64,000 bases of DNA, taken from assembly GCA_037447655.1 (NCBI GenBank), contig JBBHKE010002023.1, forward strand, positions 1 to 64,000, in the 5' to 3' direction. This DNA comes from Zygnema cylindricum. Taxonomy: Eukaryota; Streptophyta; Zygnematophyceae; Zygnematales; Zygnemataceae. Position numbers and translations under genes: made by a program. The notes below the pieces were generated by a model. The model was not told where the DNA came from. It made no database searches and saw nothing but the letters and a program-made list of their open reading frames with translations. Below are positions 1 to 53,099 of the stretch, piece by piece. Within the stretch, counting starts at the first letter, position 1. Every line of letters starts with the position of its first letter.

Positions 1-111
1 TTTCACATGGAGTGTTTGGTGCCACCTTTATTGGCAGTTCCGGACGGTCCCTGGTTTTGCCACGGATGTCGCGAGCTACCGGTCGTGTTGGCCAGCTCCT
101 CTGCCGGCTAA
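1..111 (+). CDS. C-terminal half of a PHD zinc finger (partial, 5' end outside window)
   Basis: Reading from base 1 in frame 1 gives FHMEC, then PPLL, then PDGPWFCHGC, and a TAA stop at 109-111. The pattern (F/W)HxxC-L-PPL-x4-PxGxWxCxxC is the second half of a PHD finger, a zinc-binding chromatin reader that often recognises histone H3 tails; the first zinc ligands must lie upstream of the window. The protein ends 14 residues after the last cysteine. The stop is followed at 112-130 by a purine stretch with nine or so G in a row, which resembles a retroelement polypurine tract, so this may be the C-terminus of a retrotransposon polyprotein rather than a host gene. I cannot tell which. Confidence 0.6.
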   Translation, partial: FHMECLVPPLLAVPDGPWFCHGCRELPVVLASSSAG

Positions 112-317
112 AGAGCTGGGGGGGGGGATAAACTGACCTAACCATAACCAGCTAAGTCGTTGACCTTTCTTTTCCTTCCACCTTGCCTGTTGTTGTATTT
201 ATCCATTTTTACTTTTGTGTTTTATTTTATTTACGATATCTCGCTATTATTTGAGTTTAAGTTGAGCGCAGCTGATGATATTGCATGCACCTTCATGTTA
301 TTTGACACATGCACGAC
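112..317. other. Unassigned spacer with G-run
   Basis: Between the PHD finger stop and the first base similar to the Copia family there is a G-rich run (about 115-130) and then AT-rich sequence. No gene is visible. Confidence 0.4.
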
Positions 318-2936
318 AAGTCTTGGATTTCTCCTCACTATCTCATCGGCTCCCTTGTCCACGGAAGCCGGTTCTGGTCCCATTTCTTCTATCTCCTCAA
401 AGTCCATAGGAGTATGAGAGATTTCCCGTGAGTATCTTGTATCTCGGATTTCCCTTGAGTCTGGAATCACGGTTTCACTCATGTCATCTTCGGGAAAGAC
501 CGAGTTCTCCTCACTTTCGGACTCAAATGTGATTCTTATTTTCTTTGTATATTTGAAGGGGTCAAAAATCCATGACAACTAGGTGTTTGACCAGAATGAT
601 ATCTTTCTTTCCTAAGTCATAGTCTCTATACCCCTTAACATCCTCAGTATATCCCACAAAGTATCCAAGTTTTCCCTTAGCATCTAGTATCCAGTTTTTC
701 CTATCTGTGTCAAGACTGTAAACTTAGCTACCGAACACTTTAAGTTGTGAGATATCTGGTTTCCTTCCAACCCATCTCTCATAAGGTGTCACTCCCTTTA
801 TAGGTGAGGTAAGGACTCTATTCTTAATGTAGTTGGCACAGTTCATTGCCTCTGACCAAATCTCTTTCCTATTTTCTTGTCGGCCAACATACTGCATGCA
901 CTATCTCCTAGTGTTTGATTCAGCCTCTCAGCTACCCCATTTTGTTCCGGGTTATATGGTGCAGTTTTCTAGTGCTGCACTCCCTCATCACTCAGATATT
1001 CCTCAAAATGGTTATAGGTATATTCCCCCCCATTATCACTCATTATTCTCTTAATGGGGGTTTCATGCAACTTCTCACTCCACGCTTTATATTTTTTGAA
1101 GTAAGTTGATGTATCAAACTTAGTTTTTAGGAAGTAAACTCTAGAGTATCTAGACCAGTCATCGGCTATTGTCAACATGAACCTCTTTCCTCCAACCGAA
1201 GTTACTTTTGCAGGTCCCCAAATATCTGTGTGGACCAAATCTAGTCCTTTCTCACCTCTAAATGTGGCGGTTTTGGGAAATGCAAGTTTGTGAGCCCTAC
1301 CTTGAGCACAGCCACTACAATCATCCATCATTACATTATCCCCAAACTAAATGCATTCAACTACTCTAAGATTTTTCATTTCCCTCAACCTATCAAAATG
1401 CACATGCCCCAACCGCTTATGCCAAATCATCAACTTAGGAACACCAAAATAGTAAGCATTCTTCTTTTCATTACTCAGGTTTAGCCTAAACATTTCTTGG
1501 CTACCCTTATCTGCCGTGAAGTAAACTTCATCCCCATACTTAGTTGTAAAGACTCCCTTTCTAGTGAAGGTATCAAAATCCTTGTCATCTAACAGAAACG
1601 CAAAGACAAGATTTTTACAAAGCTGAGGAATGTAGAGTACATCTAAGAATGTAAGTATATAAGTCTTACCCTCCACTAGGACTTTGAGATCTACTGACCC
1701 CACAAGATTATAGTAACCACTCTCCCATCCCCATACTCTATCTCTACAGTAGGGATCTTTGTTGGCTTAGTGAAGAGTTCCTTATCATGACATGTATGCA
1801 TGGATGCACGTGAGTCAATGATCCACCCTTCATGTGGAGCTCCCAAATTGCTCCAAGGGCACACTTTTGTCTCCAAGGGATCTCCTTCTCCTCCCGACTC
1901 TCGTCAAGAAGAAGCTCCCCATCCTCCTCCGAGGACTCGTCCTCCATTTCTCATGTCACTTTTGTAACCACAAGTGCCTTTTTCTTCCCTCCGAAAGAAC
2001 TCCCTCCACGGTTCTCTTGGAGCCTCTGCTCTGATATCTTGACACAATCTTTTATGAAGTGTCCCAACTATTTTTTAAAATGACAACGACCATTTGGGAG
2101 GCTTGGTCCTCTAGAATGATCTCTTTCCCCTTTGTACGGTTTCTTCGGTTCCTTCCCCTATCGACCCTCTCCTGCTGCTAGAGCATGAATGCTCTTTCCT
2201 CCTCTCCTAATCTCCATTGTGTTTTCCTGCACAAGTATCATCCGGACCAATTTGTTCCATTTCCATGAACTATCAGGCATTTGCTGTACTCGGTACACTA
2301 TGTTCTTGTACTCATCTGGTAACTTTATGATAAGAGTGTTAACTTTCATTTTTATTGTACCTGTCCACTCGGCACTTTCCATCTCCATATATAAACAAAA
2401 AAGTTCATTACGATTATCTAACATCTTTCCTCTTTTGTAAGTGTAACTCACTAGCTTTTGCTTATCCAATACGAGCTCCAGAATAGTACAACTTTATAGA
2501 TATCCACCAAACTCACCCACAACTCCTCCGCCTTGTAGGTGTGAAGATGAGGGGTGGCCATAGCTTGAGTGAGGTGCCTCAAAATGAAGTTCTTGGCAGC
2601 CATGTTTACATCCTCCAACATTTGAGTATCATTCTCCGCGGTCTTCACGGTTGGCGCTCCCGGTAGTGTGGCAATAGGAGTGAGGGGTGTCTCCTTCCCT
2701 TTCCGCTTTTCGGACACACTGCTGTCCCCATCATCTAGCTCCTCCTCTGAGGCAGCCGTTGCTGTAGGAAACCTTACTCCTCCAAATCTTGGTGGAGTTT
2801 CGAAGGTGGACGTTTCACTTGTTCACTGACGATACCCCAATATCGTTTTTCGCACAAAGCTCTCATTATCATGGTTTCCCAATAGATAAACTCAGATCCA
2901 TTGAAGGTGGGCACCGTAGATGGTAGGCTTATAACC
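318..2936 (-). pseudogene. Decayed Copia retrotransposon interior (gag to integrase)
   Basis: This stretch is a broken relative of the nearly intact Copia at 52085-58474, in the same orientation. Reading leftward from 2956 one finds the gag start (MEDTELQV), the gag body, the protease region (the active-site DSG now reads DSR near 1815), the pre-integrase WHKRLGH segment (near 1420) and integrase (HTDIWGP, near 1220). Similarity stops near 318, shortly after the region that lies between integrase and reverse transcriptase in the intact copy, so reverse transcriptase and RNase H are absent. Several frameshifts and stops split it into short frames. It cannot be active. Confidence 0.85.
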
Positions 2937-3941
2937 TGCAATTCCGTGTCCTCCATTAGACTACAGAATTTAGGAAGCCTCTAGATTTTATTTAACTAAC
3001 CCACTTCAAGCCACAACCACTGCTATCCAGGAAGGGAAACTGACAGTTTGACTTTAGCCCTATGCATCCTCAACTCCCTTGAGTCCATTGCAAAAATAAT
3101 CACTAAAAACGGCCAACCAGCCGATAAGTTATGAGCCGGCAAAAATGCCTATTTTATACAAAGCTCTCTTAGAGAGAGGTGACTACCAACCAAATTTTCT
3201 AAGTCCTAAACCCCTCTCACAGCCCTTATCTATTGAAGTACGAACCAATCATATAACTGTAAAGTATAGAAAGGTACTACGACCGATGTCCTTTCTGTAC
3301 AGCCTGTGTACGACAAGGCCACTGAGTGGACGTGTGTCACTTTTCCACTCGTCTGTACATTCTTCGGAATTCCCGCGACCGAATGTCATCCTTCCACGCG
3401 GCGCGAAGTCATGCCACATCTATAAAAGCCAAAGTGACCATTCCGCGATCTAGGCGATGATATGTGTTGTCGGATTAAAACCGACATTAAATGTCGACTT
3501 GTCGAAACAAATTTCCGATTCACTTGTTTCGTGCGAAATGACGTCCGCATTAAACTTTAACAAGTTTTATGTTCCTTCATTCAAATTCCATTTAATTGAT
3601 TTCAGTACCAGAAAATAGTTTAAATAAATATCAAACCCTATATCACCTAACAGACTTCTACGAGATACTGGTTAGAGCTACCGGTTACGCCGCGCTCTGC
3701 TGGTTAGAGGTTCGAGTCCTGCAGGACTCAACCTTTTTTTGAGATTGACTTCAGTCACTCTTAATTCCTTTCTATGGAGCTGAGGCAGCCATGGCTCTAT
3801 CGCTCTCTCTCTCTCCTAAAGTGAAAACAACAAGTATGAGGGCAAGAGAGTAGAGATGGAGGCAGGCTGTCTACATTTTCTTTATCTGTTTCCGCTAACA
3901 TTTTAGACCTAGATAATACCTAAAAACTAGTTATTTCAACA
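2937..3941 (-). repeat. 5' LTR of the decayed Copia relic
   Basis: It begins tgcaattccg and ends ttatttcaaca on the plus strand, and aligns along its length with the two LTRs at 52085-53086 and 57429-58474. The length (1005 bp) matches. The inner edge shows a decayed primer-binding site at about 2922-2936. On the outer side it abuts the methyltransferase relic at 3942, so this element inserted into, or was joined to, that older element. Confidence 0.85.
3661..3740 (+). other. tRNA-like segment inside Copia LTR
   Basis: Contains ctggttagagc (like a tRNA D-arm/A box), then a G+C-rich middle, then ggttcgagtcc (B-box consensus GGTTCGANNCC), and a run of seven T at 3734-3740 that would serve as a Pol III terminator. 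It is antisense to the Copia element. The same segment recurs in the LTRs at 52811-52885 and 58199-58273. It does not fold into a convincing complete cloverleaf by eye, so I call it tRNA-like and not a tRNA gene. Confidence 0.55.
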
Positions 3942-4847
3942 AAACCCCTGGGGCTGCTGTGGTCGTTTGTTGAAATCCCATTGCTCGTTCCTGTTCCTTA
4001 ATACTTGGTGCTCTCCACGTAGCGGCTCTACTGTCAAATATCATCCTTGGTGCCCCTTTTTGGTAAGCATGGCTGTTAGGGAATGATACCAGGGTTGGTA
4101 GGGCTCTCCGTGGATTTTTAGGATGATTGCAACAGAAGAACGGTGCTTAGTCAGCTCTGGTCACAGGGGTGGCCATTCGCCCTAGACCAAGAATCTACTG
4201 AACTGTGATGCTGGGATCCGGAACCTGTGTTTTCAATAGCTGTTGAAGGATGGGAATATAAACCAAGGTTGTCCAATAAGCTCGAACTCTGTGGGCTCGT
4301 GATCCCATCTGACCAGCATCAAAAACTATGGGGGTCCCTAAACTTTGGTCATATAAATCCAGTTGTTAACCACCTGTTCCCTTTTATCATCTGTGGGATG
4401 AACATTTTCCAAGACGTACCCCACTGGCGTGTCTTGGCGTTCGTGTATCTCTCTTATCAGTCGTGTCATCTAAAAGAATGTTGTGCTACAGACATCTTCG
4501 TGTCCCCTTCCCTGTCTGGCTAACGAATAACCCTGGCAAGTCCATCTAGCGACCACCGGATCTACTCTTCCAAGCTTCGCCAAATGTGAATTTGTGATGT
4601 TGTCCACATTCTGGGGGAGCGTGTGGTGAGAGTTAGATATGGCAGACATCGAGAGTTGTTGTGGGTAAAGTTGGTGCAGCTGTTGCAGTCCGTACTCACT
4701 GACTGCACGGGCGTCCGGGTCAATCTCGACTGCTGAGTATGTTTCTACTTTGTATCCAGCTTTCAGGTTGGCTTCCAGGTCGGAGTTGATGCTGGAAAAC
4801 AGTGATAGAATTGTGAGTCTTGAAGGAGGGATCTCCATTGACACCAC
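3942..4847 (-). pseudogene. Retroelement-borne C5 cytosine DNA methyltransferase relic
   Basis: On the minus strand the motifs of C5 DNA methyltransferases occur in order. Motif I is LTILSLFSSI (near 4812). An acidic motif II, AVEIDPDA, follows. The catalytic loop is WTCQGYSLARQGRG (near 4540), where the usual PCQ is TCQ but the catalytic Cys is kept. Then come YVLENV (motif VI ENV, near 4415), GSRAHRVRAYWTTL (near 4275) and finally KEQERAMGF with TTAAPG (near 3970). The order and the late motifs fit the Dnmt3/DRM-like or Dnmt1-like fold better than bacterial enzymes; the subfamily is not resolved. One in-frame TAG (4467-4469), a frameshift near 4345 and stops around 4100-4220 make it a pseudogene. 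It follows a retropepsin and gag on the same strand, so it belonged to a retrotransposon. The Copia LTR cuts it at 3941. Confidence 0.75.
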
Positions 4848-5608
4848 TTGTCAATTGAAGTCCTTACCTTTGTTAGGAACCGTTGGAAGTTTTGACCAAT
4901 GAACCTTTGTTGTTCCAGGTGATATTGCGGCAAAGCTCCTGTCCACATCCCGCTGAAGTGTGGCCATCTATACCAATCAGTTCTGATACTCCATTTCCCA
5001 CTGCTTAGAAATAGGGAATTGCTAGATGGAATCAGCGATATCGGTGGAGTCTTCGAACAACTCCAAAAGAGTTGTTGCGGAGTATACAGCATAGCATCCA
5101 AACACCGTAACAGTTATTTTCCCCCGGTTCCATAAGTCCAAGGGGACCACCACTTTAGTGCCCTCCGGATCTTCTAAGTCATAAACTTTAAATTGTTCCT
5201 TCCACACGCTCAACTCCATATTCAACCTTGTCCACGTAGCCATACCCAGCAAAATTTCGAATTGCTTACCTTCCACCACTAAGAAGGAGAGTTGAATTTG
5301 TACATGTTGGCCTGCGTCATCAGAAATTCGATTTCCATTGCCTTTATGATGCCATATACTGGTTGGCTCCCACAGTTGACCGTACTCACGCATATGTCAC
5401 TTAGACTAATTTTCGGTCGGAGTTCCTTTGGCATTTGTTGTAATGTTGTTGTGGTTATGAGATTAGGGAGAGCTCCGGTATCCACCACTGCATCTTCATA
5501 CCCGATGTATCCATTAAGTTTAAAATTTCCTGTCTTGATAATAATAAGAGCCACCGATAGGGCATTATAATCTGTATCCGCCATAGATGTTTTTGGTTCC
5601 GCCGACAT
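4848..5608 (-). pseudogene. Retropepsin-like aspartic protease region of the methyltransferase element
   Basis: The frame from 5608 reads an acidic start, then AVVDTGALPNLIT near 5490. This is the D(T/S)G active site of retroviral-type aspartic protease, followed by the hydrophobic-Gly segment expected of the fold. A second frame (5393-5022) continues with FEILLGMATWTRLNMEL, a typical retropepsin C-terminal ILG motif. At least one frameshift separates the two. The protease would process the gag-pol polyprotein. It lies about 640 bp upstream, in the element's sense, of the methyltransferase, with no reverse transcriptase between. Confidence 0.65.
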
Positions 5609-8600
5609 GAAGATTGTCTAAGGTGGTTCTACCAGCTCGACCCTTTCCCTCCTGGTGTGAATCTCTTCCCATAATGCTTGTATGAGTGTTTTTTCGGGCA
5701 AATTGTGTGAGGAGGCTAACGTTTTGATGTGAGTCACAACGTAGGGCATCGGGTGCCGTACTAGCATCAGTATTGGTTTGTAAGAAGAAAAGAGAGCTTT
5801 GGGCGATGAAATGGGTGGATCGTCGTCTTCTGATTTCACCTGTCTTCCCCCCTACTTCCTCATTCTCTGCATCAAAATTTTATGTTAGAGGTGTAATTGG
5901 CGGATCTGTTGGTGGTCTTTTAGCTAGGTATCGGTCGAACCCTTCCAGATCTGTCTCACTGGTTGAAAGACACTTTCCAGCTGTGGTTTCTTCTAATCTT
6001 TGAAACTGGGAGGAAGTTTTTTCGCAGTCAGAGGAGGTGGATGAGTCGTCTTTAGGCTTAGCCCAATGTATCTGTTCAGAAGGACCGCTCGCGGTGTGAA
6101 AGATAGAGGACCGAAGGCTTTGCGGTTGTGGTCTTTTTGTTCCCTCGCCAGTTTGTTCTTTCATTGAGAGGAAGTTGTAGAGCCCAATTGCCTTCGACTG
6201 TCCCCTACTTCAACGTTCCCGGCTCCAGACATAAATGTCTGAGCATGATGAGCCTTTGGAGGCTCCATATCCCAACCCATTTGGTCATCGTCATCTCCAC
6301 CCGTCGTGGTCTGCTGCTCTAGCTCTGCCAGCTTTTGTAGTTGTTTTTGTTTTTGTTTTCTGCAATTTTGGAGCCTGTTCCAGAGGTTGAGGTATGCGGG
6401 AATTTGATCTCAAGCGGAGAGCATCCATTTCTGCTGCCAAGGCGGCCAATTGAGTGCTCTGTTGTGGAATGATATGTTCCAGCGTCAGTCAGCTGGAAGT
6501 CGGTTCACTGGGAGATCGTCGTTCCCGGGAATATAGAATTTGCAGTGACAGTTGATTAACGGCTTCTTCCCCTTCGCCTGTGAACAAAGCATATTGCAAC
6601 ATTTTTTTTGAGACCCCATTCTTCCATGAAACATTGCCCTTATTTGTGCCCCATAAACCCAAAAGCCTCACATTTTGACCCCTTAGCTCATTAGAGATCA
6701 AAGCGTCATAAAATTTAGGAATTCTGATATGTCTTAACTAGGATTGAGACAGTTTAGCAGTTTTAGAGCGGGAAGTAGGTTTATAAGTGTCTTTGTTGAC
6801 CAGTGTTTGGTCTCCTCCTCTACCTTATTTCATGCGTTCTTGCTGCCTCTGGGTTCCTTCTGTACGTTCTTTCTCAAAATCTTTTTGCTTGAGAGCGAGT
6901 TCTAGTTTGAGCATCCTGGGGCACTGTTTCCACCCGTGACGGGTTTAGTTGCCAATTTTACAAAAAAACTTTTTCATCTGCACCTATTGCAGGTTCGGGT
7001 CTATCGGCATCCTATTTTCCTTTGAGCTTCAGCAAAGCTTGGAGTTTTGTTTGTACCTCTTAGCTTAGAGAGGATTCCCCCGCAAAACCTGCAAAGTTGG
7101 CTCTTGCTTTTCCAATAAGAGCCTTTTCCCTTGCCTCAATGTTTACAATATGATTACATAACTTCATGGCAGCCAATGAAATCTCATGCAACGTAGAATT
7201 CCTGTCGTCGATAGCCTAACTGGAACTCTAATTGTCGAGAGCTACTTGTCCTATTGGCCCGTACGAGTTCCGAATAGCGACATAGTATTTGGTGACCATA
7301 GCAGATGTATCAATGGTGGACAATTTGGTCTTCTGACAAAGGCTTGCGAGGCGGTTCAACATCGTTTGAGGAGTTTCATTCTTCAAACATCGGGAGTCTG
7401 TGAACTCCTTGATTGCATTTTTGTTCCTTTCTCTATAAAGGAGTCTCCAGGCATCAAGAAGAGTTGTGTAGGGAGTTGGGTTGGCAATCATCCGGGTGGC
7501 TGCCTCAGCGGCTTGTACGGCCTGTAGATGATTGACATAGGCCCTACCTTGGGCGTGCAACTTTTTGTCCATGGTAAAATTGGGGTGATAGGATCTGCTG
7601 CTACAGCTACCAGTTTGGTTACTCCATGAAAGACCTCAGCGTCTAGATCTAGATCTGATATCTTGATGTTGGGAGCCATCTACAAGGGTTGACGCTCTAT
7701 ATAATCGGCCAAGGCTCCTCCGGCTTAATAGTTGACCATCATCGAAAAAATATTTGTTTCAAAATCCGCTAGGATGACTCCCCCCCTATATTTGTTAATT
7801 TTGGACTAGGTGAAATATTTCCACAGAAGTTCGAAATTCGAAAAAGCAATTCTCGAGCTGTCCCCTGTGAAGATCCGGATGTCCCCCATTTTCATTTCCT
7901 CTTCGGTAAAACTGAAGAACCGTGGGGAAGCCTGTCTGGTGTGGCTAACAAACTGAGCCGGTGAAATTGCTCCGGGATCTAGGATCTCGAGATCTGAACC
8001 AGTCCCTCCTCGAATAGAAAGGGCGGTAGTAACAGCAATGTCTGAGGAAGGACTTGCTCTTGAAGAAGATGGTTGGTCGCCTGCTCCTCTATATTCACAA
8101 GAGGCTTGTTCTCCCTTTAGAACTGTCTCCACCAATGGGATGTGGAGACAAGGTCGAGGTCCTCGAGGAATGGATGTCGGCGGATATGGTGAAGACTGGA
8201 AGCTTCGAAGAGAAGGTGTCCCTCTCCTGAAGGTTGTCTGTCTCCTGGGCCGTCTATGGGAATCCTCGGAAGGAGGAGTTTCGGGAATGGAGGGGGATCA
8301 TCGGTGAGGAGGTGAGTAAGCGGTGAATTTGTAAGCTAGAACAGGTGGATCAAGTGACCCCTAAACTGCTGCAGCTGGAGACAAGGATGGCAAAAGAGAG
8401 GAGACGTGAGATGGTGATGGTGAAGGAGTGGTTAGTCTGAGGGAAATGTGTAATCTCCGGTCGGGTTGTAGTTGCACCACTGCTTCCACTATAGAAGATC
8501 TGCCACCGAGACAAAGGTAGGAAGCGGCTACCAGATTACACGGTAGATTTGCACCCAACCCCTTTTTGTTACCTCTTGTTGTGTCCTCCCCTCACCGCTG

Positions 8601-9832
8601 GAGAGGAGATTTGGTCGCGGTTCCGGTGAAGCCCTGGGAGCTCGTGTCGCAACAAGAGTTTTCCTAATCTGGAGGTTTTCCTTCCACCAAGGGACCTGTC
8701 TTAAGAGGAGGAGCTACCTGTCCACTAAGGATCCCCCCTGATCTTTGTCTAGCCTCTTGTATAAGTAGTAGCTCCTATTCCAATGATTTTTTCCTTTCCT
8801 CTTCTACAGCATCCCTGTCTATTATGACTGAGCCGGTCCCCGCCGTAGCCTTTCCCTGAGATCGTAGGATTTCCACCAATATCTGGGTGCTGCTCACCAC
8901 ACCCGAGAGATCCAGAATCCCCAACCCGGGTGCTTCAAGTTCCGTAGGTCTCCAACGCCAAAACCCTTCGGAAGGTCGAACCATTGGTGCAGAGGGAGAC
9001 AAGGAACTTAGAGAAACTGAGGCGGAAGAAAAGAATGACTTCTCTTTAACTAGGGGAGAAAATTCGCCTTTACTCTCTTGATGGTTGAACCCGAAATCTC
9101 TCTTGGGTTCTAGTGTCTTCCGTTTGCCTATCCCTTCCCCTTTTCGGTTTCAAGAAGTCGCCCGGCCTCTAGGCTCACTACTGGTGGCAATGTCCTAAGA
9201 TGGGGTGTGCTGCTGACGAGAAGTCGATGACCTCACCTTGTTGCTCCTTGACAGAGGTTGAAGAACCGCTCTCTGACAAACTCATTAGGATTTCCACTGC
9301 CCCTCCCACTGGGTGTATTATCCGTGCTCGGTCGCTTCTGGCAACCCGCTTCACCAGCTCCTTCTTTACCCTCAACTCATGGATAGAGTGAAGGGCTAAA
9401 ATCTCCTTGCGACCTGGCCGGTTAGGATCCGCCAAGATTTTAGGATCCATGTACGTCTCAACTGTTGGAGCTTTAGATCTAGTATAACGTCCCACTTTGA
9501 GAAGGTGACCAGGGACCGTTTCCTTATAGGCCAAAGTTTTCCTTCGGGACTAAGGAACAAAAGACTATCTTTCAAACTTTTCCGTAGCCCTAGCCCTGAC
9601 GGCTTCGGACAACGTAGGGAAGTTCTCAGGAGAAAAGACCGGCAAAGGTGGAGGAGAGGGTTGCTTCTAGCAGTTTTGGAGGAGTCCCAACTATGACAGG
9701 CTCAAGCATCATTCCCTGGAGAAACTGCTCTATGTTTAAAGTTGAAAGGAAAGGGAACTGCTTCCTCGGGCACATGTGACTCTTCCTCCTGTGCCATTGC
9801 TTCTTGCCCCTCCCGCTCTTCCTGACTGGCAC
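5609..9832 (-). pseudogene. Decayed gag region of the methyltransferase-bearing retroelement
   Basis: Several overlapping minus-strand frames make up a broken gag. A capsid-like helical segment lies at 7228-7679 (frames from 7679 and 7572, joined by a frameshift; it includes YTTLLDAWRLLYRER). A decayed zinc knuckle lies near 6930-6975: spacing fits CX2CX4HX4C, but the second Cys is Gly and there is a stop inside. A charged, low-complexity N-terminal part covers 7806-9832. A serine/threonine-rich stretch (5880-6164) links to the protease. Assignment rests on position upstream of a retropepsin and on the knuckle spacing; no single segment is strongly diagnostic. Confidence 0.5.
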
Positions 9833-11644: not shown

Positions 11645-12749
11645 TGTTGTTTTGAAAGTTTGTTTCGTGCGTACGCGACAGTTGGAGCGCTATGGAATTT
11701 AATGTGGAGGTTCGAATGGATTCATGGATTGGGGGAGCGAACGAACGGATATAATTTGAGTGATGTAAAAGACTCACTGAGTGGCGGGTACAAGCATTGA
11801 CAAATGGACGGCGAATCGCGAAACGATCCGGATCGCGAAGCGATCCGATGTGGAATAAACGAAATGTTGAAACAGGCACCGCCGGTACGGCGCAGTTACG
11901 ACGCAAACAGGACAATGCAACTGCGGTTATTTTGGATGAATATGCGCCGCCGGTACGGAGCAGCTGCTACGCAGACGAGTCAACGCAGCTGCGGTTACCT
12001 TGATACGATCCGCACGGACAAAGCAGCTGACGCAGCTGCGGATAACATAACTAGTATAGATTGTGAGTAATGATATTTACTTAGTGGTAGCTTGGCTTTT
12101 GACGTACGAAGATTGTGGAGATGTCGGTGTAAATATTATGTACAACATAGGTTTGTCTTTTTGCTAATTAATTATTAATGTAGATTTGTTCGGTCTTACA
12201 TACCTCGAACTATTAGGTATACTTACAATAGTTTAGGTAGATGGTAGATACCGTACGGCTGGTATGCCTCCGTACATTCAGTAGTGAACTCTATGAGTAT
12301 AACTTTTAGGACTTAGAATATTTTGAGTATCACAGTCAAGTTTAATCAAAGCAATGACACATTGTTTTCTGCATCTTTGACCTGTTAGTGTGATCACCCT
12401 GTTTGGTGCTTTCATGTGAAACTTTGTGAAGTTATTCTATGATATAGAATATATATGTGTGTGCAATTTCATTCTATTCTGTTATCTCTGTAATATTCTG
12501 TGTGAGGTCTAAGTGGTTAGTTTGTGAAGCTGTCCGCTGTTTTTGTGAAACTCTGGAGCTTATATCTTCTAGATTCCTTGGTGGATTTGGCTGTAACTTT
12601 GGGAGCTTACATTTTCTATAGTATACTGCCTTGTGGTGTAGTTTGAGGGTACTTTTTTTTTTGTGGAGTCATCTGTGATGTCTGAAATACAGTTGTTTGA
12701 GGGGTAGTCTGTTGTGCTTCCGAGGGTAATCCATGGCTGAAATAGGCTA
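11645..12749 (+). repeat. 5' LTR of family B element
   Basis: Begins tgttgttttgaaag, and parallels the 3' LTR throughout. The other family members end tggacaaca; here the LTR breaks off at ggcta, so the last nine bases are missing just where the primer site begins. Confidence 0.85.
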
Positions 12750-12762
12750 GTTATGGGCCCAC
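12750..12762 (+). promoter_or_regulatory. Primer-binding site matching the anticodon arm of initiator tRNA-Met
   Basis: gttatgggcccac is complementary to the initiator tRNA-Met anticodon region (gtgggcccataac), the site used by Drosophila copia, which primes from a 5' half of that tRNA. The ATG of gag (12753) lies inside it. Confidence 0.6.
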
Positions 12763-13588
12763 ACCCATGGCTACCCATATTTGATGGATCAAAATATCAC
12801 TACTGGAAGGATGAACTCGAGAGCTACTTCGAGATGATGGAGCTAATGGATGTGGTGGACGGTACCTTGGCCGAAACATCTAATAGATGGAAAAGGAAAA
12901 ATCATGAGTGTCTAAGGGTTATCAAGAACTCCTTGACTGAGGATTTGGTAATGTCATACTTAAGTTTTAAAGAGGCATCCGAATTATGGAAGTGCTTAGA
13001 ATGTATGTATGCAAAGACTTTTTTATATCATAGGCTTAGCAATTTTACCGAAATAGTTCAATTCAAGTATGTAGGAGGTAGTATGGAGAAACACTGTATT
13101 GACTTAAAGTATTATTTGCAGAAAATGATTTGGCAGGAGGAAACTTTACAGATGCCCAACAAGCTATATTATTAATGAGAAGTCTACCTAAAAAATATAA
13201 GAGTGCTTTAGATCAATTAAATTTAATTGATAAAAGGGATTGGAGCTTAATTATAGCAAGACGTGCTGTTCTAGATGAAGAGGCTAATAGAAAGGTTTTA
13301 TCAAATAAGAGGAATATAAAGGAATCTAAGTCTCAATTTCAGAAAATTAAAAAGAATAGCGAGTTCGGAGATCTGCAAAAGAATTGTTTTTATTGTAATG
13401 ATTTGGGACATACCTTCAAGGTATGTCCGTCATATAAAAGTGCACGTGTTACAGGGAATTTCAGAGATGGATGGGACAACAACCTAGTTCGACCATCAAC
13501 AAGAAGAGAATCAAGTTCTTTCGTGAGTGAGAGACAAGACTCAACCGATGACAAAAGGCATACACTGTGTGTTGAAAAATTTATTTAA
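12753..13588 (+). pseudogene. Copia-type gag with zinc knuckle (frameshifted)
   Basis: The frame from 12753 starts MGPHPWLPIFDGSKYHYW, a typical Copia gag opening, and includes SEASELWK-like helices. A frameshift near 13128-13140 moves reading to the frame that runs to 13588. That second part has DAQQAILLMRSLPKKY and ends with CFYCNDLGHTFKVC, an intact CX2CX4HX4C knuckle (13386-13427) for RNA binding. Gag forms the virus-like particle. With the frameshift repaired only gag would be made, since no pol follows. Confidence 0.8.
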
Positions 13589-15561
13589 CTACGACCTTCT
13601 ATGTTGTTCGGAATGACGAGAAGGAGGTGACAGAAAAGGATTTGGTGTCTGTCCCTTTTCCCGACGACAGATTGGTGAGTACAAAAGAGTTACAAGAGAA
13701 AGAGTTTATTGAAGTAAGGAAAAATGATGAAAGAGAGAAGGACACAATTTTTGTGACCTTATCAGATTACAAATTGGTGAGTGAAAATTGCTTACAAGAA
13801 AGTTTGTTAACTGAAGCAAAAGGAGTTGAAGGAAGATATGGACACTTAGAAGCAAAAACTAGAAATAAGGTGGATGTGGAAATTGGTGAACTAGGAGAAG
13901 AATAAAGAAAAACTGTTCAGAAAATTGGATCGAGAAAAGAAGTTTGTGGGAGTGAAAAATGTAATACAAATGCAAACGTTAGAAATATAGGAAAAGAAAA
14001 TAGGAAGAAAAGAGTGCAAATGAAAAGAAGAAGAATCAAAATTAAAATTTCTCAAATGAATGAAGTTAATGGGAATAGAAAATCTACGAAGAAAAACATA
14101 GAGGTAAAATAGAAAATTAATATTTTTGACATTAAAAGAGTAGAAAACTGTGACAGAAATGAAAATTTTCAGAAAAGACAAAAGATAATGAAGAAAACAA
14201 AGAGAAGATACAATATTCATCGGATCAAGGGCAGAAGAAAGCATGCTCGCAAAAAAAGTGATTAAGAGAAGAGAGCGTGAGAAATGATTTTGTGGAGAAC
14301 GTGAATTTAGAGAAATCTTAATTTTGGAAAAACTTATATTACAGCCATGTGTTAGCTCCTTTTGACATTCAATATTTTTGGTAGGATTTTAGATTTAATG
14401 TTATTTCTTGTTGAGTTAGTTGAAAAGAATCAAAAAGTGTTATTTATGTATTTTTGAAAAACGAAGGAGGTAGCGGAAGCAGTGGTGAATCATTGGAAGC
14501 AGTTCACGTCGCGAAGCAGTGACGCACCATAGCAGCGCAGCGGATGACGTGGAAGTATTTGATAGGGGGAAGGTACAACAATTGTTTGATGAAAGTGGGT
14601 AGAAGATAGATATTTTTGACAAATACTGATCATATGAGTAAGTGACGATTACGGGTGGAATTCAGAGTTACTAGAGAGGTGTTATATCATTTTTGAAAGG
14701 ACAATTTGACGTTTATGGCATAGGGGGAGCTGTTACGGGACGATATTCAAATTTGTTAGTCTATAAAATTCATAGAAATTAAGAAAATGGTTGATAAAGT
14801 TATTCGTGGAAGACAAAGAGTGTTTGAATATTAAAAGATTAACTCGGCAAAGAGGCAGTTGTGAAGACGGGGAAGTTTGGAAGACATGGCAGGAACACAG
14901 CAGAGGCAGTGGAGAATTAGCGGAAGCAGTTCGCTTCGCAACGCAGCAACGAATGAAGCAACGCAGGGGAAGAAGTGGGGTTATAACGTTGGTGAAAGTG
15001 ACAATTTCACATTTATGACTTACGGGGAGTTGTTACAGGACAAATTCTGCAAGGTGGTGGTTTTCAGCAAGACAAATGGGACGTGGCAACGTCAGCAAAA
15101 AAATGGTGATGTATTGTTTTGGCTAATATTTTTCAATCATTAGTAATGGAGGTTGATAGAGAATTTTTAATCTCTAAATATTCTACATTCTTCATTTTGT
15201 TTGTATTTCCAATAGGGTAGAAATATCTGCATGGACTACTGAGTCTAAAGCTTTAGGGGAGTGTTGAAATTGAAAGCTTTAGTTCTCAGTAGATGAGGCT
15301 ATGAGGAGGAAGTTAAATGTGAAAGGAGCAGCTGCTAGAGCTGCAATGTCAAAATAGTGCAGCATGGCAACATAGCAGTATACGCTGCATATTATATTCG
15401 TATTGGGTTGCGATGTCGAACTAGCGCAGCGTAGCAGTAGAGCAGTACACGTTGCATAATGTATTCATACTGTGCTGCGATGTCGAACTAGCGCAGCGTA
15501 GCAACATAGAATTACATGATGCATATTTTTATAGGTGCACGAAACTAAATTTTCGGGGGAG
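13589..15561 (+). other. Interior of family B element: short ORF, diverged direct repeats, 68-bp tandem repeats, purine tract
   Basis: A frame at 13627-13905 encodes a charged 92-residue peptide of unknown kind. Two diverged direct copies lie at about 14460-14760 and 14880-15045, each ending in a gggggagctgttac-like purine-rich motif. At 15342-15530 three copies of a roughly 68-bp unit carry cgatgtcgaactagcgcagc. The purine tract cgggggag at 15554-15561 abuts the 3' LTR. No pol domains are visible. Confidence 0.55.
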
Positions 15562-16660
15562 TGTTGTTTTGAAAAGTTTATTTCGTGCGTACGCGACAGT
15601 TCGTGCGCTATGGAATTTAATGTGGAGGTTCGCATGGATTCATGGATTGGGGGAGCGAACGAACGGATACAATTTAAGTGATGTAATAGACTCACTGAGT
15701 GGCGGGTACAAGCATTGACAAATGGACGGAGGATCGCGAAGCGATCCGATGTAGAACAAACGAAATGTTGAAACAGGCACCGCTGGTACGGCGCAGTTGC
15801 GACGCAAACAGGACAACGCAACTGCGGTTATTTTGGATGAATATGCGCCGTCGGTACGGAGTAGCTGCGATGCAGACGAGTCAACGCAGCTGCGGTTACC
15901 TTGATACGATCCGCACGGACAAAGCAGCTGACGCAGTTGCGGATAATATGACTAGTATAGATTGTGAGTAATGATATTTACTTAGTGGTAGCTTGGTTTT
16001 TGACGTACAAAGATTGTGGAGATGTCGGTGTAAATCTTATGTACAACATATGTTTGTCTTTTTGCTAATTAATTGTTAGTGTAGATTTGTTCGGTCTGAC
16101 ATACCTCGAACTATTCGGGTATACTTACAATTGTTTAGGTAGATGGTAGATACCATACAGCTGTTATGCCTCCGTACATTCAGAAGTGAACTCTATGAGT
16201 ATAACCTTTAGGACTTAGAATATTTTGAGTATCACAGTCAAGTTTAATCAAAGCAATGGTAAAGTGTTTTCTGCATCTTTGACCTGTTGGTGTGAGCACC
16301 CTCTTTGGTGCTTTCATGTGAAACTTTGTGAAGTTATTTTATAATATAGAAAATATATGTGTGAGCAGTTTCATTCTATTCTGTTATCTCTGTAGTATTC
16401 TGTGTGAGTTCTAAGTGGTTAGTTTGTGAGGTTGTCAACTGTTTTTGTGAAACTCTGGAGCTTATATCTTCTAGATTCCTTAGTAGATTTGGCTCTAACT
16501 TTGGGAGCTTACATTGTCTATAGTATACTTCCTATTGGTGCAGTTTGATGGTATTTTATTTTTTGTGGAGTAATCTGTGCTGTCTGAAATACAGTTGTTT
16601 GAGGGGTAGTCTGTTGTGCTTCCGAGGGTAATCCATGGCTGAAATAGGCTATGGACAACA
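15562..16660 (+). repeat. 3' LTR of family B element
   Basis: 1099 bp, begins tgttgttttgaaaag and ends ctatggacaaca (inverted ends TGTTGT/ACAACA). Parallel to 11645-12749 with scattered substitutions. Confidence 0.85.
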
Positions 16661-20155: not shown

Positions 20156-21713
20156 GACTGCCGGTACTCCAACCAAAATTTTCAATTCAAAAGTCAACCT
20201 ACCTTACGGAAATACGTACGAATCAAAAATATTTAAATAATGTCAAGAAAATTCGAAATCGATTAAAAAACGAGCTTTTCAGCTGCTCGTTCGTCGCGGT
20301 TCGTTTTCGATTTGAGGGATTTGACCAGGTTCAATGTTTCTAGTTGGAACGTTTATACGGTTTATGACTTTTGTTTCTATGGTACGACTCTACGAGCAAA
20401 AGTTCACCGTCTGTACGGATGCTAACAATAGAATGCTGCTAGGTAGACACCTGTATTTATGCTTCCTGTACTTTTTCGAGAAGGTTACGACCGTCGATTA
20501 GATTCTATGTGATAAAATCTTATTGTTACGATTGGTTTAGAAATAATAAGGACAGAGGTAAACAGTTAAACACATATGTGTTTTTGATGATGTTGCCATG
20601 TAACGGTAAAAGCTACAAAGGCTTAAACATCAGGGAGACCATTTGAGCCGTCCGATTGTGACTCCGTTTCCGCACGGCCACCGATGAACTACAGTACTGT
20701 AACAAGCAGCTGGCAGTCCAGCTGGATGCCGTACGTTCTGCTTCTGTGCGGAGTTGAAAATTTGAAATACACGCAGATCTGTCACATGGATCCTTTGCAC
20801 AGAGCTCTAAGTACGGAGATCGAAAATCGTAGCTTTAAACCGTCCGATCAGGACACCAGGTTGACAATCTTTTCTGAATTCTGAAAACAAGGCTTCCGTG
20901 TGATGACGTACTTTTTTTTCGAGTTTTGGACTGATTTTACTAATTCCCACACCAGATAAAGCCCGCAAAAGCACAGTCAGCTCTCACGCTCGTCCTCTAC
21001 CGCTAAATCGGACGATCGATGTTCCTTTCACAATCAAGCATTCCCTATCGTCCATTAAGAATATATTCCATTTTGGAGATGATTAAGCTCATTGGCGTAG
21101 ATGAATTATTCAACGGCCAGGATGTCATTTTAATGTGTTCCTGTGATGTTTTTATGCTGCCTGAGACGTTTTTTGCAGCCCTGTATAAGCGACGCGTGGA
21201 AATGACTAACCACCAAACACCTTTTTTGGCTTTTTCTAGATTGAAAAGCAAAAAGTGTGAAGTCTGACGTGGCAAAGGTTGCAGCAAGAAAAGACTCCGT
21301 GACAAGAATCGGCGTTCTTCACACTATTTTCTATAGTATTAAAGAACTTTTGAGGAACTTTTTTGTACAGTTCTGTACTACTGTACTTTACCGTACGGTA
21401 GACTGATTGCTGTTCTGTACTGTAGTTTATTACAACTCAACAAGCAAAACAGATTCCCTTCAAAAAATGCAAACAGCAGATCAAAAAGTGTATATTGCTA
21501 TTAATCTGTGGCAACAACAAAACTCAAAGTTTTTCATCTGATATTTTTTCTTGTTATTTGTATGTTTTTTTATCTTCTTGAAACTGGTGGAAAACCTACA
21601 ATGCCTCAAAATATTGTAAACTTAGGGTGATTGTCAGTGTAAGTTTACCGTATTGTTTTTTTTATTTTAAAAAAGGGCCGTTTCAGAAACTAATAAAACA
21701 GTAGAATACAGAA
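20156..21713 (+). other. Upstream region of ISA1
   Basis: About 1.5 kb without a supported exon. It has repeated gtccgat motifs (about 20650, 20837 and, inverted, 21009) and several gtac-rich stretches (21360-21430). A promoter presumably lies here, but I see no decisive TATA element. Confidence 0.35.
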
Positions 21714-24700
21714 ATGGCATTTTCTGTTTCCCAGCAGCAGCTCTGTAATCTCACAAACGTTCAAAACATTGATGTTTCTTTGTCCTTTTCCTCTTTGACT
21801 GTATGCTCTGTTACTACCGACAGCCATTCAGTTACCAGCAACAGCCTTCAGTTTCAGAAAGAGTTTCTCCCCAAGCTGCTCACAAGTAACCTAAATCTAC
21901 CATACAGAAGAGACAAAACAGACGGAAGAGACAGAGTAAGTGACAGAAAAGACAAAAAAAGAGGCAGAAGAACCTTTTTGCTCTCAGAAAATGCTGCTCC
22001 TTACCTTCACACAAAAGCTGTTTTGTCAGAGTCTCCCGATATTTACGTTCGTGATTCAAATACACTGAATCGTATGGCTGTAAGAGATTTCGGTACGGGT
22101 CTTGATTCTCTCTATAGTACTCCTCAAAGGGGCCGTCCGACGCCTGCCGGAGCAGTCTTTTGTGACGATGGAGTAAACTTTGCAGTCTATTCCTCAGGAG
22201 CAACATCTGTCACACTTTGTCTTTTCACCGAAGACGACATTCAAAATGTAAGCATTTATGGATGATTGTCCGGATCATGGTATCGGTGGTGGTAGAGAGG
22301 ATGGTATGGATGATAGTACGGGTGATAGTACGGATATGATATCAGGTCGCAACAGAGTAATAACTAAGAAAATGCAAGTAAGAATATACACAAAGGAATG
22401 TATTACGTAAAGAGGTAAGCTTGTCATTCCATGAATAAAGATACGCAAAAAATACTTTCAATGTATAGTAGCATTACATTGCAATACATTGCTCTATGTT
22501 GTAATACAAAACAATTACAGTGTTACAATACAATAAATCCATTTATTTTATGACAAAACATAGCATATATACATTGAATGCATTTATACATTGAATGCAT
22601 TTATTGTCTAACCGAACATAATAAAAAACACATTTTTTGTATAACAAAACATAATAAGAACATGGTTACAATACAATAAATGCATTTAGTGTGTGACATA
22701 ACATAACAGCACTCTGTTGCAATATAATACCATACAAAACAATAAATGCATCTACTGTATGACATAACATAACATATGACAAAACATAACATGTAAACAT
22801 TTTATTGCACCAAATGGCATTATGTTGTATCAATGGATTCACATTCAATCTCTTCTAAGAGACAGCCCTCGATGGCATGTCAAAAAAACTGTGCAAAAGT
22901 TTGCCTTGTTTTATAATAATATAGGACTAGGATTTTATAAAACATCAAAATCTTATAAGGAGCTTTGTTTGGATCTATTTAGGGATTTATATGCACACTT
23001 ATGATAATCATTTCCTTTCCTTGTGATTGTGAATATGGTTTCATGACCTAAACTTGGGATAATCAAGAAAATAATTAACACTAATTTTAGCTGTAAATCT
23101 CTTCAAGGATCAACTTCATTACTTTGATAAAAAATGGTTTGTTTCATAATTTCAGGAAAAAAATCATGATCTGCAGGTGCTCAAGCTAAAAAAATATTAT
23201 TGAAGAACTTTCTGAAAAATTGCTGAATTTTTTTTCAAATAACTTTTTGAAGAACTTTTGAAAACCTTTCGATTAATTTTTTGAAAACGTTTTGAAAAAC
23301 TTTTGAAGAACTTTTTAAAAACTAACTTTTTGAAAAGAAAGCATTTGCATTAGTTTCTAAACTGTGGATTGTTTGTTTCTGTTCAATGAAAAAGTGCATT
23401 CCCTGTCCATTAATGTAATGCATCTATTCTAATATTGGTGCAGGGCAAAATCACCGCGGAAGTTCCTCTTCACCCCATACTCAACCGAACCGGCCATATG
23501 TGGCACATTTTCCTCCCATCGTTATCCCCCAGTCTTCTTTATGGGTACCGCATTGGAGGCAAATTTGTACCTGAGGAAGGTCAAAGATATGACCCCACAA
23601 AAATCGTGGTTGACCCTTATGCTAAGGTATTAAGTAATCAGCGGCAAAAATCCTTTTGAGAGCTACACAGTGAATCGTTATTGGTTTTTTTGCCCTCTGA
23701 AGACAACAAAGGGTGTTGATTATACTGTGTTCCTGAACGTTAACCCTTTTTGCAGTTCACAATCTTCCTCGTCATGCGGATCGGAAAGAGAATTATTAAC
23801 ACTAAAACAGTTCTCGCGTTAGTTGTTTTTTAACATCAATAGTGATTCAGGGTGTACTTTTCATTTCAGCAAATGGGCCATTCTGGAGTTTTGAGTTTTC
23901 GAACAGGATCTATTTGGTTATTAAACTGACATTTTTGCAACCCCAAATATCTGTATTGTGACCCAGAGAAGGTTTGAAAGCACATTATAGAAGTTTGTGT
24001 GAATTGGAGTCGGGGTTTTACCCTAGAGTACAGAAGAAGCTATAATCCTTCAGGGGGCGAAGATTTTTTGTTGTTTAGATGATTAAGTTGGTTCTTAATT
24101 TCGTGTGTATTCCACAGGTGTTTAATCCACCTCAATATGTCAATTGGCTATGTGATACGAAATTAATCAGCTTGAGGGGAACTGGAACTTTGACTTGTTG
24201 ATTTTTTTTTCAATTTTAACTTCGAAGGTTGACCTTTTCTGGGCCTCGCCTTGTCACAGGCTGTAGTGGGAAGGCCAAGTTATGGAGTTCCTGGTTTCAA
24301 TGGAGATTGTTGGCCACAGTTGGCAGGAATGGTACCCGGAGAGGGAGACGATGATGTGAGTGTTATGTCTCTTCGTGCATTCTAAAACTTGAAAGGTCTT
24401 GCTATCTGAAAATAAGCATTATTAGGATCCATGTAGAGCTAGTAGATGAAGAGAACTTGATTAATTTTGCGGTTCCGGTCCTTCAAGTTGAGGACATAGG
24501 AGGATAAATGAATGCCAGCATAATGACATGTTCATGAGAATTAATTCCAGGTTTACTGTTTGAAAATAATGTCCCTACCTTGTAAAAAGTCAAAGCAAAT
24601 CAATATGGAAAGTCATATGCAAAGATAAGCAGTGTAAATGCCGCACACATTGTTATGGGGTGTAAACCCAAAGCTGGAGAAAAGTATGTTGCTCTTATTG

Positions 24701-45900: not shown

Positions 45901-45978
45901 TTACAGCTAATTTCAAACTAGGATGGAAAACCCTTCGCTCACAACTTGCTCACAAACTCAACACAGAGCTGACCTGAC

Positions 45979-46150
45979 GCCTAGGATACTAATGCCTCAA
46001 AAGATTCATAATTTAATTTTTGCCTAGGATACTAATGCCTCAAAAGATTCATAATTTAATTTTTGCCTAGGATACTAATGCCTCAAAAGATTCATAATTT
46101 AATTTTTGCCTAGGATACTAATGCCTCATAAGTTTTATGATTGAATTTCT
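45979..46150. repeat. 43-bp tandem repeat, four copies
   Basis: Units start gcctaggatactaatgcctc at 45979, 46022, 46065 and 46108. The first three are identical; the fourth is diverged in its second half. Confidence 0.95.
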
Positions 46151-47582: not shown

Positions 47583-49178
47583 TGTAACAGGGTTACAAGG
47601 TTGAGTACTTAGTGGCTAGAAACTAGGCTGCTATAATTGCGGTTGCAGAGCAGCGCAGCTGCGATTATAGATCAGCGCAACATAGCAGCATAACAACTTA
47701 GTAGAATAGCGTAGCGCAGCATAGCACGCACCGTGGCAGTATAGCAACGCCGCACAATGTAGATTTACCTGTATAGTTCTAGAAATATGTTTGGATAGAT
47801 CTCGGTTGACCGTGAAGGTCCACGTGTACACTTGTACATGTTGTCCATTGCCTATTCCAGCCATGGAATACTCACGGAAACACCCACAGACTACCTCAAA
47901 ACCAGTTGTGTTACAGACAGCACAGTTTACTCCACAATACACAGAATCACCTCAAACTGCACCAATATGCAGTATACCATATACACTGTAAACTCCCAAA
48001 GTTACAGACAAATCCACCAAGGCATATAGAAGATATAAGGTCCAGAGTTTTCCAAAAATAGGTGACAGCTTCACAAACTAACCACTTAGACTGTTCACAG
48101 AATCTTACAGAGATACTGGATTAAAATGAAACTTCACACACATATAGATTCTATATCATAGAACAACTCCACAAAGTTTCACATGAAAGAACCAAACAGA
48201 GTGATCACACCAACAGGTCAAAGATGTAGAAAACAGTTTGCCATTGCTTTGATAAACTTGACTGCGATACTCAAAATATTCTAAGTCCTACAAGTTATAC
48301 TCAGAGAGTTCACTACTGAATGTACGGAGGCATACCAGCCGTACGGTATCTACCATCTACTTAAACTATTGTAAGTATACCCGAATAGTACGAGGTATGT
48401 CAGACCGAACAAGTCTACACTAATAATTAATTAGCAAAAAGACAAACCTATGTTGTACATAATATTTACACCGACATCTCCACAATCTTCGTACGTCAAA
48501 AACCAAGATACCACTAAGTAAATATCAGTACTCACAATCTATACTAGTCATATTATTCGCAGCTGCGTCAGCTGCTTTATCCGTGCGGATCATATCAGGG
48601 TAACCGCAGCTGCGTTGACTCGTCTGCGTCGCAGCTGCTCCGTACCGGCGGCGCATATTCATCCAAAATAACTGCAGTAGCATTGTCCTGTTTGCGTCGC
48701 AACTGCGATGTACCGGCGGTGCCTGTTTCAACATTTCGTTTATTCCACATCGGATCGCTTCGCGATCCGCCGTCTTTTTGTCAATGCTTGTACCCGCCAC
48801 TCAGTGAGTCTTTTACATCACTTAAATTATATTCGTTTGTTCGCTCCCCCACTCGATGAATCCATTTGAATCTCCACATTAAATTCCATAGCGCACGAAC
48901 TGTCGCGTACGCACGAAACAAACTTTTGAAAACAACAGTACAGTGTTAGGTTCACTAGCAGCTAGTTAGTTTAAATAGTGGAGCAGACGTAGCAAAAAGA
49001 AAGACTCTTTGAGTAGACCTTTGGAGTTAGCTGCCAACTTGTAATCTTCCTCCCGATTAATAAAGCTTGACATTCATTTGTGAGTGCTGTGTACTCTTGT
49101 TGTTGCTACAGGGAGATCCTTGGAGTCTTTCCGCTGTGCATTATAGTCTGTTGTGGGTTATTATCCTTGTGTGTTACA
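47583..49178 (+). repeat. 5' LTR of the Gypsy element (split by a solo LTR)
   Basis: Begins tgtaacaggg and ends gtgttaca (inverted ends TGTAAC/GTTACA) one base before the primer site. Without the 1104-bp nested insertion it is about 490 bp. The start is inferred from the inverted ends because no second copy is available. Confidence 0.55.
47839..48937 (-). repeat. Solo LTR of family B, minus orientation
   Basis: 1099 bp, reverse complement of the LTRs at 11645 and 15562. It begins tgttgtcc and ends aaaacaaca, with a perfect target duplication gtaca at 47834-47838 and 48938-48942. Produced by recombination between the two LTRs of a former element. Confidence 0.93.
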
Positions 49179-49191: not shown

Positions 49192-49242
49192 TTTCCCTCG
49201 TGACTTGACAGCTTAGGAGAACACGGCGTATCTACCACGGAA

Positions 49243-49989
49243 ATGTTAGCGCAAGTTCTTCGGGAGTTGGAAAACGTCAGATTACAGAATGCTCAATTGA
49301 GTAACACCGTCGCAACTTTGGAATCTCGTCTTGGTGAACGACCTCATGGAGGCATGGAGAGAGACTTAAGAAGACCGAAGTTAAGACTTCCCGATGAGTT
49401 TGACCCGGCCATACATAGGAACCTTCGTGCGTGGCTATTCTCCATTGCGAATTACCTTGAGAATTTTCGTAGCCTATCGGATCGTGAGAAGATTCATTAT
49501 GCGGGTGGTCTTATAAAAGGGGCAGCGGGAGCATGGTTGACGACAATGGTGGAAAACGATGAAATACCGGCTGACTGGACCCTTTTCATTCAGCTCCTCC
49601 ATGACTCTTGGCAACCCGTCAATACGGTTAAGGCTGTAATGGATAAAATCGCAGTTTTGAAACAACTTACCTCGGTGTTGGAGTACACGCATCGGTTCTT
49701 GGAGTGCAAGGTTCAAATACCCTCGATGACAGAGGACGAAGCCGTGAATCGTTACGTTAAGGGGCTTAAGGCCTCCATTCGTAGGGATGTGGAACAATGG
49801 CTCGCTAGGGAAAGTATGACTCCTAGCCTCTCGGCGATTATCGAGTTTGCGGAATGGGCCGATTCAGTGGACTTCACCTTCTGTAGATCCTACCACTTTG
49901 GGTCGAGTAGCAGTGGGGGAGGTCGACGTGATGATGGTCCACCCCCCATGGAGCTCGGAGCAATTAATGAGGATAAGGAGGTGGTCTAG
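49243..49989 (+). CDS. Gypsy gag (capsid)
   Basis: The 248-codon frame starts with a coiled-coil-like segment (LAQVLRELENVRLQNAQLSN), then has the Gypsy gag core (LRAWLFSIANYLENF, DWTLFIQLLHDSW, YVKGLKASIRRDVEQW). It forms the particle shell. The frame stops at 49987-49989 before any zinc knuckle, and a different frame then carries the protease, so gag and pol are separated by frameshift or decay. Confidence 0.8.
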   Translation: MLAQVLRELENVRLQNAQLSNTVATLESRLGERPHGGMERDLRRPKLRLPDEFDPAIHRNLRAWLFSIANYLENFRSLSDREKIHYAGGLIKGAAGAWLTTMVENDEIPADWTLFIQLLHDSWQPVNTVKAVMDKIAVLKQLTSVLEYTHRFLECKVQIPSMTEDEAVNRYVKGLKASIRRDVEQWLARESMTPSLSAIIEFAEWADSVDFTFCRSYHFGSSSSGGGRRDDGPPPMELGAINEDKEVV

Positions 49990-50084
49990 ATGGAAGGGTG
50001 GGTTGGGAAATCCTGCCAGCTTGATGCGGTTCCCGAATCATATGCCAGGAATGCCCAAAAGGAGGTCCTAAGAAGAAAAACGTT

Positions 50085-50488
50085 ATGAGGTTAGCTGGCG
50101 AAGGGGGAGATCCTTTAATATTTCAGGGTCGAATCGAAGTGAGCGCAGCTAGCGTCATGGTGGACTCCGGCGCATCGTGGAACTTCATCAACGGCGACGG
50201 TGAAAAAGTTGAAACTTCCTCTCGTGGTGCTAACGGATCCTCGGTCAATGCAACTGGCCGGCGGAAGTTCCTTATCCATTACTCATCGTACTCCGAGGTT
50301 ACGCGTTGGAAATTGGGAAATTCTATTGGTTTGACACTCTTCATGTATTACCGCTTGGAGACCATGAAGTAATTTTGGGGAAACCGTGGCTGCAAAAGTG
50401 GAATTCGACATTCGATTGGAGAAGTGGCGACATGAGAGTGCGAAAAGGTGAAAAAGAGTTTGAGGTAAAGGTGGGAGCGGCTGGTTAG
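50085..50488 (+). pseudogene. Gypsy aspartic protease region
   Basis: VMVDSGASWNFIN (near 50155-50195) is the retropepsin active site. After a frameshift near 50300 the frame to 50488 has LGDHEVILGKPWL, the conserved ILG element. Confidence 0.75.
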
Positions 50489-50560
50489 GGATCGGAAGAG
50501 GGACGCCTACTTTCGACCTTACAGCTTAAGAGGGCACTCAATTAGGGGGAGACAATTGAT

Positions 50561-51326: not shown

Positions 51327-51567
51327 TGCAATTCTGTGTCCTCCATCGTACCACAAAATACAGGAAGCCTCTAGATAGTATTTAACTAACCCACTTTAAG
51401 CCACAACCACTGCTGTCCAAGAAGGCAAACTGACAATTTGACTGCACCCCTGTGTAGCCTGGACTCCCTTGAGTCCGTAGAAAAAATAATCACTGAAAAA
51501 GGCCAACCAGGCAATAAGTTATAGGGTGGCAAAGATGCCAAATTTATACAAACTCTCATGGAGCGTT
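51327..51567 (-). repeat. Copia LTR fragment inside the Gypsy RT
   Basis: About 240 bp matching the first part (plus-strand sense) of the LTRs at 52085 and 57429, with more divergence than those two show from each other. It replaces part of the RT coding sequence, so an insertion was followed by deletion. Confidence 0.85.
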
Positions 51568-52079: not shown

Positions 52080-52084
52080 CCCGG

Positions 52085-53086: not shown

Positions 53087-53099
53087 CTCCCCTTATTTT

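Follow-up and report, generated by a model that had tools for sequence, protein, structure and literature searches.

Cytosine DNA methyltransferases (MTases) carried by retrotransposons have been described previously. The accessible text of de Mendoza et al. (2018; PMC5890265) reports retrotransposon DNMTs including KnitGypsy-Dnmt3 of Klebsormidium nitens, in which the Pol polyprotein of a Gypsy LTR element with a DIRS-like repeat layout includes a DNMT3-class MTase whose domain is not rearranged. It also describes SymbioDIRS-Dnmt3 and SymbioLINE-Dnmt of Symbiodinium, likewise retrotransposons carrying cytosine methyltransferases, and the SymbioDIRS enzymes methylated CG sites in yeast. In the portions available, a 2019 opinion records methylase-bearing elements of the Ty3/Gypsy and DIRS types from algae and charophytes, not from tracheophytes (PMC6338049), and a 2025 paper reports that some retrotransposons of both streptophytes and dinoflagellates, with LTR Copia and DIRS elements named, carry DNMT3 (PMC12344493). 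The precedents in Klebsormidium and dinoflagellates that an earlier note on the present locus had named are real according to the accessible text of PMC5890265; capture of a DNMT by a retroelement is a real phenomenon, and one of a kind already known from KnitGypsy-Dnmt3.

The window analyzed here is a stretch of 64,000 nucleotides from Zygnema cylindricum, which begins at base 1 of its contig. A gag and a retropepsin followed by an ordered set of C5-methyltransferase motifs had been claimed on its minus strand. All of the named motifs were located (Table 1), in four frame pieces running from 4850 down to 3942, and their order is conventional, with the motifs that we take to be I, IV, VI (ENV), VIII and IX all present, indicating that the enzyme is not a rearranged DRM. 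Motif X is absent and was lost with the cut made by a Copia element. The residue before the catalytic Cys of motif IV is T in the window alone, and P, E or D in the other rows of the family alignment A3 that cover the site. Among the 25 rows of this alignment, one of which is the window, PF00145 was matched in 22, RVT_1 in 2 and gag-asp_proteas in 1 (E <= 0.1).

Table 1. Positions of the methyltransferase remnant and associated features in the window.
Feature	Position	Strand	Remark
PHD-finger ORF tail with stop	1-111	+	E 0.002 to L033 PHD finger; PF00628 6.7e-4, under cut-off
G-rich polypurine-like tract after PHD tail	about 112-130	+	by eye
Nested, truncated Copia element	318-3941	-	5' LTR about 3073-3941
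DNMT3-like C5-cytosine MTase remnant	3942-4850	-	motifs I to IX; C-terminal end missing
Motif KEQERAMGF	3973-3999	-	
Motif ALPTLVSF	4081-4104	-	
In-frame stop within MTase	4147-4149	-	
In-frame stop within MTase	4195-4197	-	
Motif GSRAHRVRAYWTT	4267-4305	-	
Frame-change zone within MTase	4341-4365	-	
Motif LENVHP	4395-4412	-	
In-frame stop within MTase	4470-4472	-	
Motif IV TCQGYS	4524-4541	-	with catalytic Cys
Motif AVEIDPDA	4710-4733	-	
Motif ILSLFSSI	4788-4811	-	
Retropepsin remnant, two frames	5025-5617	-	upstream of MTase
Gag-like remnant (weak)	7228-7635	-	probably same element

Profile searches bore out the assignment to the C5-methyltransferases. Profile A4, built from 15 relatives (3 of them Closterium proteins) without the window row, though its members were gathered by searches with the window sequence among the queries, matched the four pieces separately at 110.8, 77.7, 52.4 and 25.2 bits (4 of 1613 stop-to-stop frames), against a top score of 13.5 bits in 30 windows shuffled in blocks of two bases. 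Pfam PF00145 matched the X-joined read-through of the remnant at 4e-5 and 23.6 bits (cut-off 22) and gave no match with the piece 4473-4850 taken alone; the best match of the read-through among solved structures was DNMT3A (9e-6). The feature is a remnant of a DNMT3-like C5-cytosine methyltransferase.

A gag-like part, a probable retropepsin remnant and the MTase follow one another in the claimed order and in the same orientation. Two retropepsin motifs, VVDTGALPN (5462-5488) and FEILLGM (5241-5261), were recognized on the minus strand just upstream of the MTase, and the C-terminal half of the retropepsin remnant and the first half of the MTase are in one frame, with intervening stops. Pfam gag-asp_proteas matched this remnant at 0.0012, under the curated cut-off, and its pieces taken separately gave no Pfam match. 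A gag is weakly suggested by 26% identity to the gag-like part of the contig L033 described below (E 0.023), and no Pfam gag family was matched in the gag-like remnant.

As the earlier note had held, this copy is dead: it has three in-frame stops and a frame change, and is cut at 3942. The 5' LTR of the nested Copia element ends at 3941, so that the first base beyond it is the edge of the MTase. The LTR bounds were taken from a second Copia copy (about 52215-58474, minus strand), whose two LTRs are 98.7% alike over 873 columns; this second copy has a 1203-aa open frame and sits inside a Ty3 element. The RT, integrase and LTRs of the MTase element are absent from the window. No RT follows the MTase because the nested Copia LTR cut the gene at 3941/3942, and the RT side is not visible because the Copia element is itself truncated and the window is the start of the contig. 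Similarly, no LTR pair was seen around 3942-9150 among the direct-repeat families listed (20 of 21), and none could be expected because the element is cut on one side. The Copia cut also explains why the MTase seems to occupy the expected place of RT: the enzyme does lie right after the protease, but relatives place it before RT and not instead of it. In the rest of the contig (189,105 bases), no second MTase was found, and the only match was an integrase-like one (L066, E 1e-6).

The first search retrieved 2 protein relatives and the profile search 33, with P0001 in both, giving 34 distinct proteins, of which 24 were examined in detail. Four of the 33 are Closterium-named (P0013, P0014, P0016, P0018), and no named Klebsormidium sequence was among the search results. 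The nearest relative, P0002, carries the MTase and a Ty3 RT in one ORF, and Pfam placed RT after the MTase, with no stop between them, in both P0002 and P0029. On the other side of the enzyme, P0018 has a weak retropepsin before the MTase in one ORF (Pfam, below cut-off). By eye, a protease tail precedes the MTase in P0009, and an RT N-terminus follows it in P0011, P0014 and P0015. In the other 17 examined relatives, many of them short, no retroelement domain was recognized.

The contig L033 (CADCWO010000201.1), which is 9285 bases long and is assigned to an uncultured Synechococcales bin, has an apparently complete layout: gag-like part, protease, MTase, one TAG, RT, RNase H, integrase and PHD finger. 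In ORF1 (1346 codons), a CCHC box lies at 403, the DSGA site of the protease is at 706 (Asp_protease_2 7.8e-4, under cut-off) and the MTase starts at about 934 (PF00145 7e-12), while ORF2 (1047 codons) matched RVT_1 (4e-31), RT_RNaseH (2e-38), Integrase_H2C2 (1e-17), rve (1e-13) and a PHD finger (4e-10). No Pfam gag family was matched in L033, whose gag assignment relies on its position and on the CCHC box. ORF1 aligned to the window from the protease through the linker to the MTase in one stretch (E 1.3e-47). The first and last 127 bases of the contig are identical, and thus the contig is probably an element that was assembled as a closed molecule with a single LTR copy. Its domain set is that of eukaryotic Ty3 elements, and we infer that its cyanobacterial label reflects contamination; a search of the Synechococcales bin matched the L033 contig alone, in two pieces.

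Taken together, the window element is very probably what is left of a dead Ty3/gypsy LTR retrotransposon belonging to a clade that carries DNMT3. The claim that a retrotransposon captured the MTase is supported by the position of the enzyme between protease and RT in relatives, that is, protease and MTase in one ORF in L033 and P0018 (and P0009 by eye), and MTase and RT in one ORF in P0002 and P0029. The polyprotein order of the clade would be gag-PR-MTase-RT-RH-IN, with a PHD finger at the end in L033, and a later Copia insertion severed the MTase near its C-terminus, parting it from RT. KnitGypsy-Dnmt3 has its DNMT3 in the Pol ORF (accessible text of PMC5890265), whereas the window shows the protease-MTase half only, and L033 has a stop between MTase and RT. 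The Symbiodinium elements also differ: they are of the DIRS (tyrosine recombinase) and LINE (endonuclease) types, whereas Ty3 elements have a retropepsin and a DDE integrase, and they represent independent captures (PMC5890265, in part). The accessible text of that paper does not mention a leaky stop or a PHD finger, nor where the MTase of KnitGypsy-Dnmt3 lies relative to protease and RT, and within the scope of literature titles and abstract openings, no PHD-tailed or readthrough DNMT-Ty3 element was reported; the layout of L033 may already be present in the figure of the 2018 paper.

Between the MTase and RT frames of L033 (3489-3617), the TAG is followed by CAATCA and a stable hairpin. The context of the leaky stop of the TMV replicase in plants is UAG CAR YYA (PMC2754532, in part), and the TAG-CAA-TCA at the sole stop between the two frames of L033 fits it. 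This context occurs at 1 of the 101 plus-strand TAGs of L033, namely the inter-ORF stop, and at 1 of its 89 minus-strand TAGs, and TAG-CARYYA occurs at 1 of the 766 plus-strand TAGs of the window. The 120 bases after the L033 TAG fold at -54.6 kcal/mol (z -3.76), with none of 200 shuffles as good. These results suggest that the TAG and hairpin are a candidate readthrough signal. However, the L033 stop sits in a retroelement with the hairpin downstream, readthrough is predicted from sequence, and the leaky stop is not a general feature, as P0002 and P0029 run from MTase into RT without a stop; it is known from one contig.

Chromoviruses are Ty3/gypsy elements with a C-terminal chromodomain. L033 resembles them in carrying a chromatin-reader module after the integrase, but its module is a PHD finger. 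The PHD tail and the polypurine-like tract at the start of the window probably mark where another Ty3 element with a PHD finger has its 3' end; the tail was also considered as the far end of the MTase element and rejected, since it lies on the opposite strand.

In intact relatives, the MTase would be made within a Gag-PR precursor and packaged in the particle, where it could methylate cytosines in the cDNA of its own element, either before integration or during it, and the benefit would be that new copies arrive silenced, are less harmful and persist. We tentatively regard such self-methylation of cDNA as the most likely working of intact relatives, at somewhat less than even confidence. CpG depletion was considered as a sign of it and rejected: the observed/expected ratio of the MTase element (0.60; whole window, 0.74) is no lower than that of the Copia copies (0.56 and 0.60) or a gene region (0.59), so it is not specific and does not show self-methylation. 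A fuller version, which we consider rather unlikely, is that a Ty3 clade across streptophyte algae packages DNMT3 at Gag-like amounts, with gag-PR-MTase as the main product and RT-IN-PHD made only via TMV-type readthrough of a leaky UAG, and that the particle pre-methylates the cDNA while the PHD finger steers it to a chosen chromatin state. If true, this would be an element writing and reading epigenetic marks for itself. It is unlikely that the MTase of intact elements targets host chromatin, rival elements or DNA viruses and not its own cDNA: an antiviral role of transposon methylases has been proposed (PMC6338049, in part), but in L033 the MTase shares the frame of Gag and PR, which points to the particle. 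Apart from the exact function, the occurrence of the same MTase family in Closterium proteins, public contigs and the genome of the window suggests that Ty3 elements with a DNMT are not peculiar to Klebsormidium, and the layout of L033 offers a tangible case in which to ask why transposons would carry a transposon-silencing type of enzyme.

The MTase is likely to descend from DNMT3. Against the PDB, profile A4 scored DNMT3A at 93 bits, chain 4onj (presumably a plant DRM) at 45, HhaI at 41, DRM2 at 38 and DNMT2 at 29. Compared with DRM, DNMT2 and the bacterial enzymes, DNMT3 is the closest to the family, although with the family profile the margin over the fetched bacterial loci is small (DNMT3A pieces, 90 bits; best bacterial, 76; best viral, 66). 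An acquisition from a bacterium, phage or giant virus is quite improbable, but several results lean toward it. P0001 matched the phage profile phrog_116 at 7.5e-20 and, when used alone, ranked HaeIII and HhaI (31 bits) slightly over DNMT3A (27.6). A search of phage records with P0001 gave 14 records, at 30-39% identity over 32-50% of the query. Among genome contigs, A4 matched 16 loci of 167, namely the L033 retroelement and 15 filed under bacteria (36-76 bits), and among viral contigs 32 loci of 71; with the family profile these viral loci scored 41-66 bits, whereas L033 scored 436. None of the 42 pattern matches of profile A1 in viral contigs was a relative, and a whole-polyprotein search with the MTase part of the window gave 174 candidates, none at E <= 0.01 with the length set by the 1421-residue carrier. 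Structure prediction argues for DNMT3. In the P0018 model (mean pLDDT 67.5), residues 1-170 were below 50, and 22 of the last 34 ten-residue blocks reached at least 85. Foldseek matches of this model in the PDB were all DNMT3 entries among the 50 listed of 850 (TM 0.80 to 6w89_A by target length), with DNMT3A at E 9e-17; the best viral model, a phage MTase, reached E 4e-15 with poor superposition. Consistent with this, in a tree of 57 rows, from which P0003, P0006, any row shorter than 150 residues and all but the best 22 bacterial/viral rows were excluded, the window joined P0002 at 99/91 within a retroelement MTase clade of 34 rows (99/98), and 21 of the 22 bacterial/viral rows split off at 100/100. 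The remaining viral row, L006, paired with DNMT3A at 89/38 on long branches flagged as possibly false. This tree holds one DNMT3 sequence, in pieces, and bacterial/viral rows picked by motif patterns, and its root is for drawing only.

A hitchhiking MTase domain of little function in the element is very unlikely. Ty3 elements without an MTase do exist, and one lies within the window: a neighboring element (49204-60300, plus strand), split by the second Copia copy, has a gag at 49204 (Ty3_capsid 4e-11), a PR-like frame (by eye), RT frames and an integrase at 58443 (+), with no MTase match between the PR-like and RT frames. This control indicates that the MTase module belongs to the other element and not to every Ty3 element in the window. 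However, all 15 rows of A4 keep the catalytic Cys and the two Arg of the motif VIII region, and purifying selection is reported for KnitGypsy-Dnmt3 (PMC5890265, in part). Finally, a host DNMT3 or DRM pseudogene adjoining a decayed gag and protease by chance is hardly credible: such an origin would fit a broken copy that has no RT or LTRs of its own in the window, but relatives link the MTase with protease or RT, L033 aligns in a single stretch through the linker, P0002 is fused to RT, the motif order is conventional whereas that of DRM is rearranged (PMC5890265, in part), and DRM2 scored far below DNMT3A, although its rearrangement itself lowers such a score.

Other repeats and frames were also observed in the window. 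In a third LTR element (11650-16614, plus strand), the LTRs are about 93-95% alike and one frame looks gag-like by eye; an inverted copy at 47886-48937 (minus strand) resembles a solo LTR. A frame at 21705-22265 (plus strand) resembles, by eye, the N-terminal portion of a gene for isoamylase, a starch debranching enzyme, and suggests an algal or plant host that makes starch. A tandem array of nearly identical 43-base units lies at 45936-46148.
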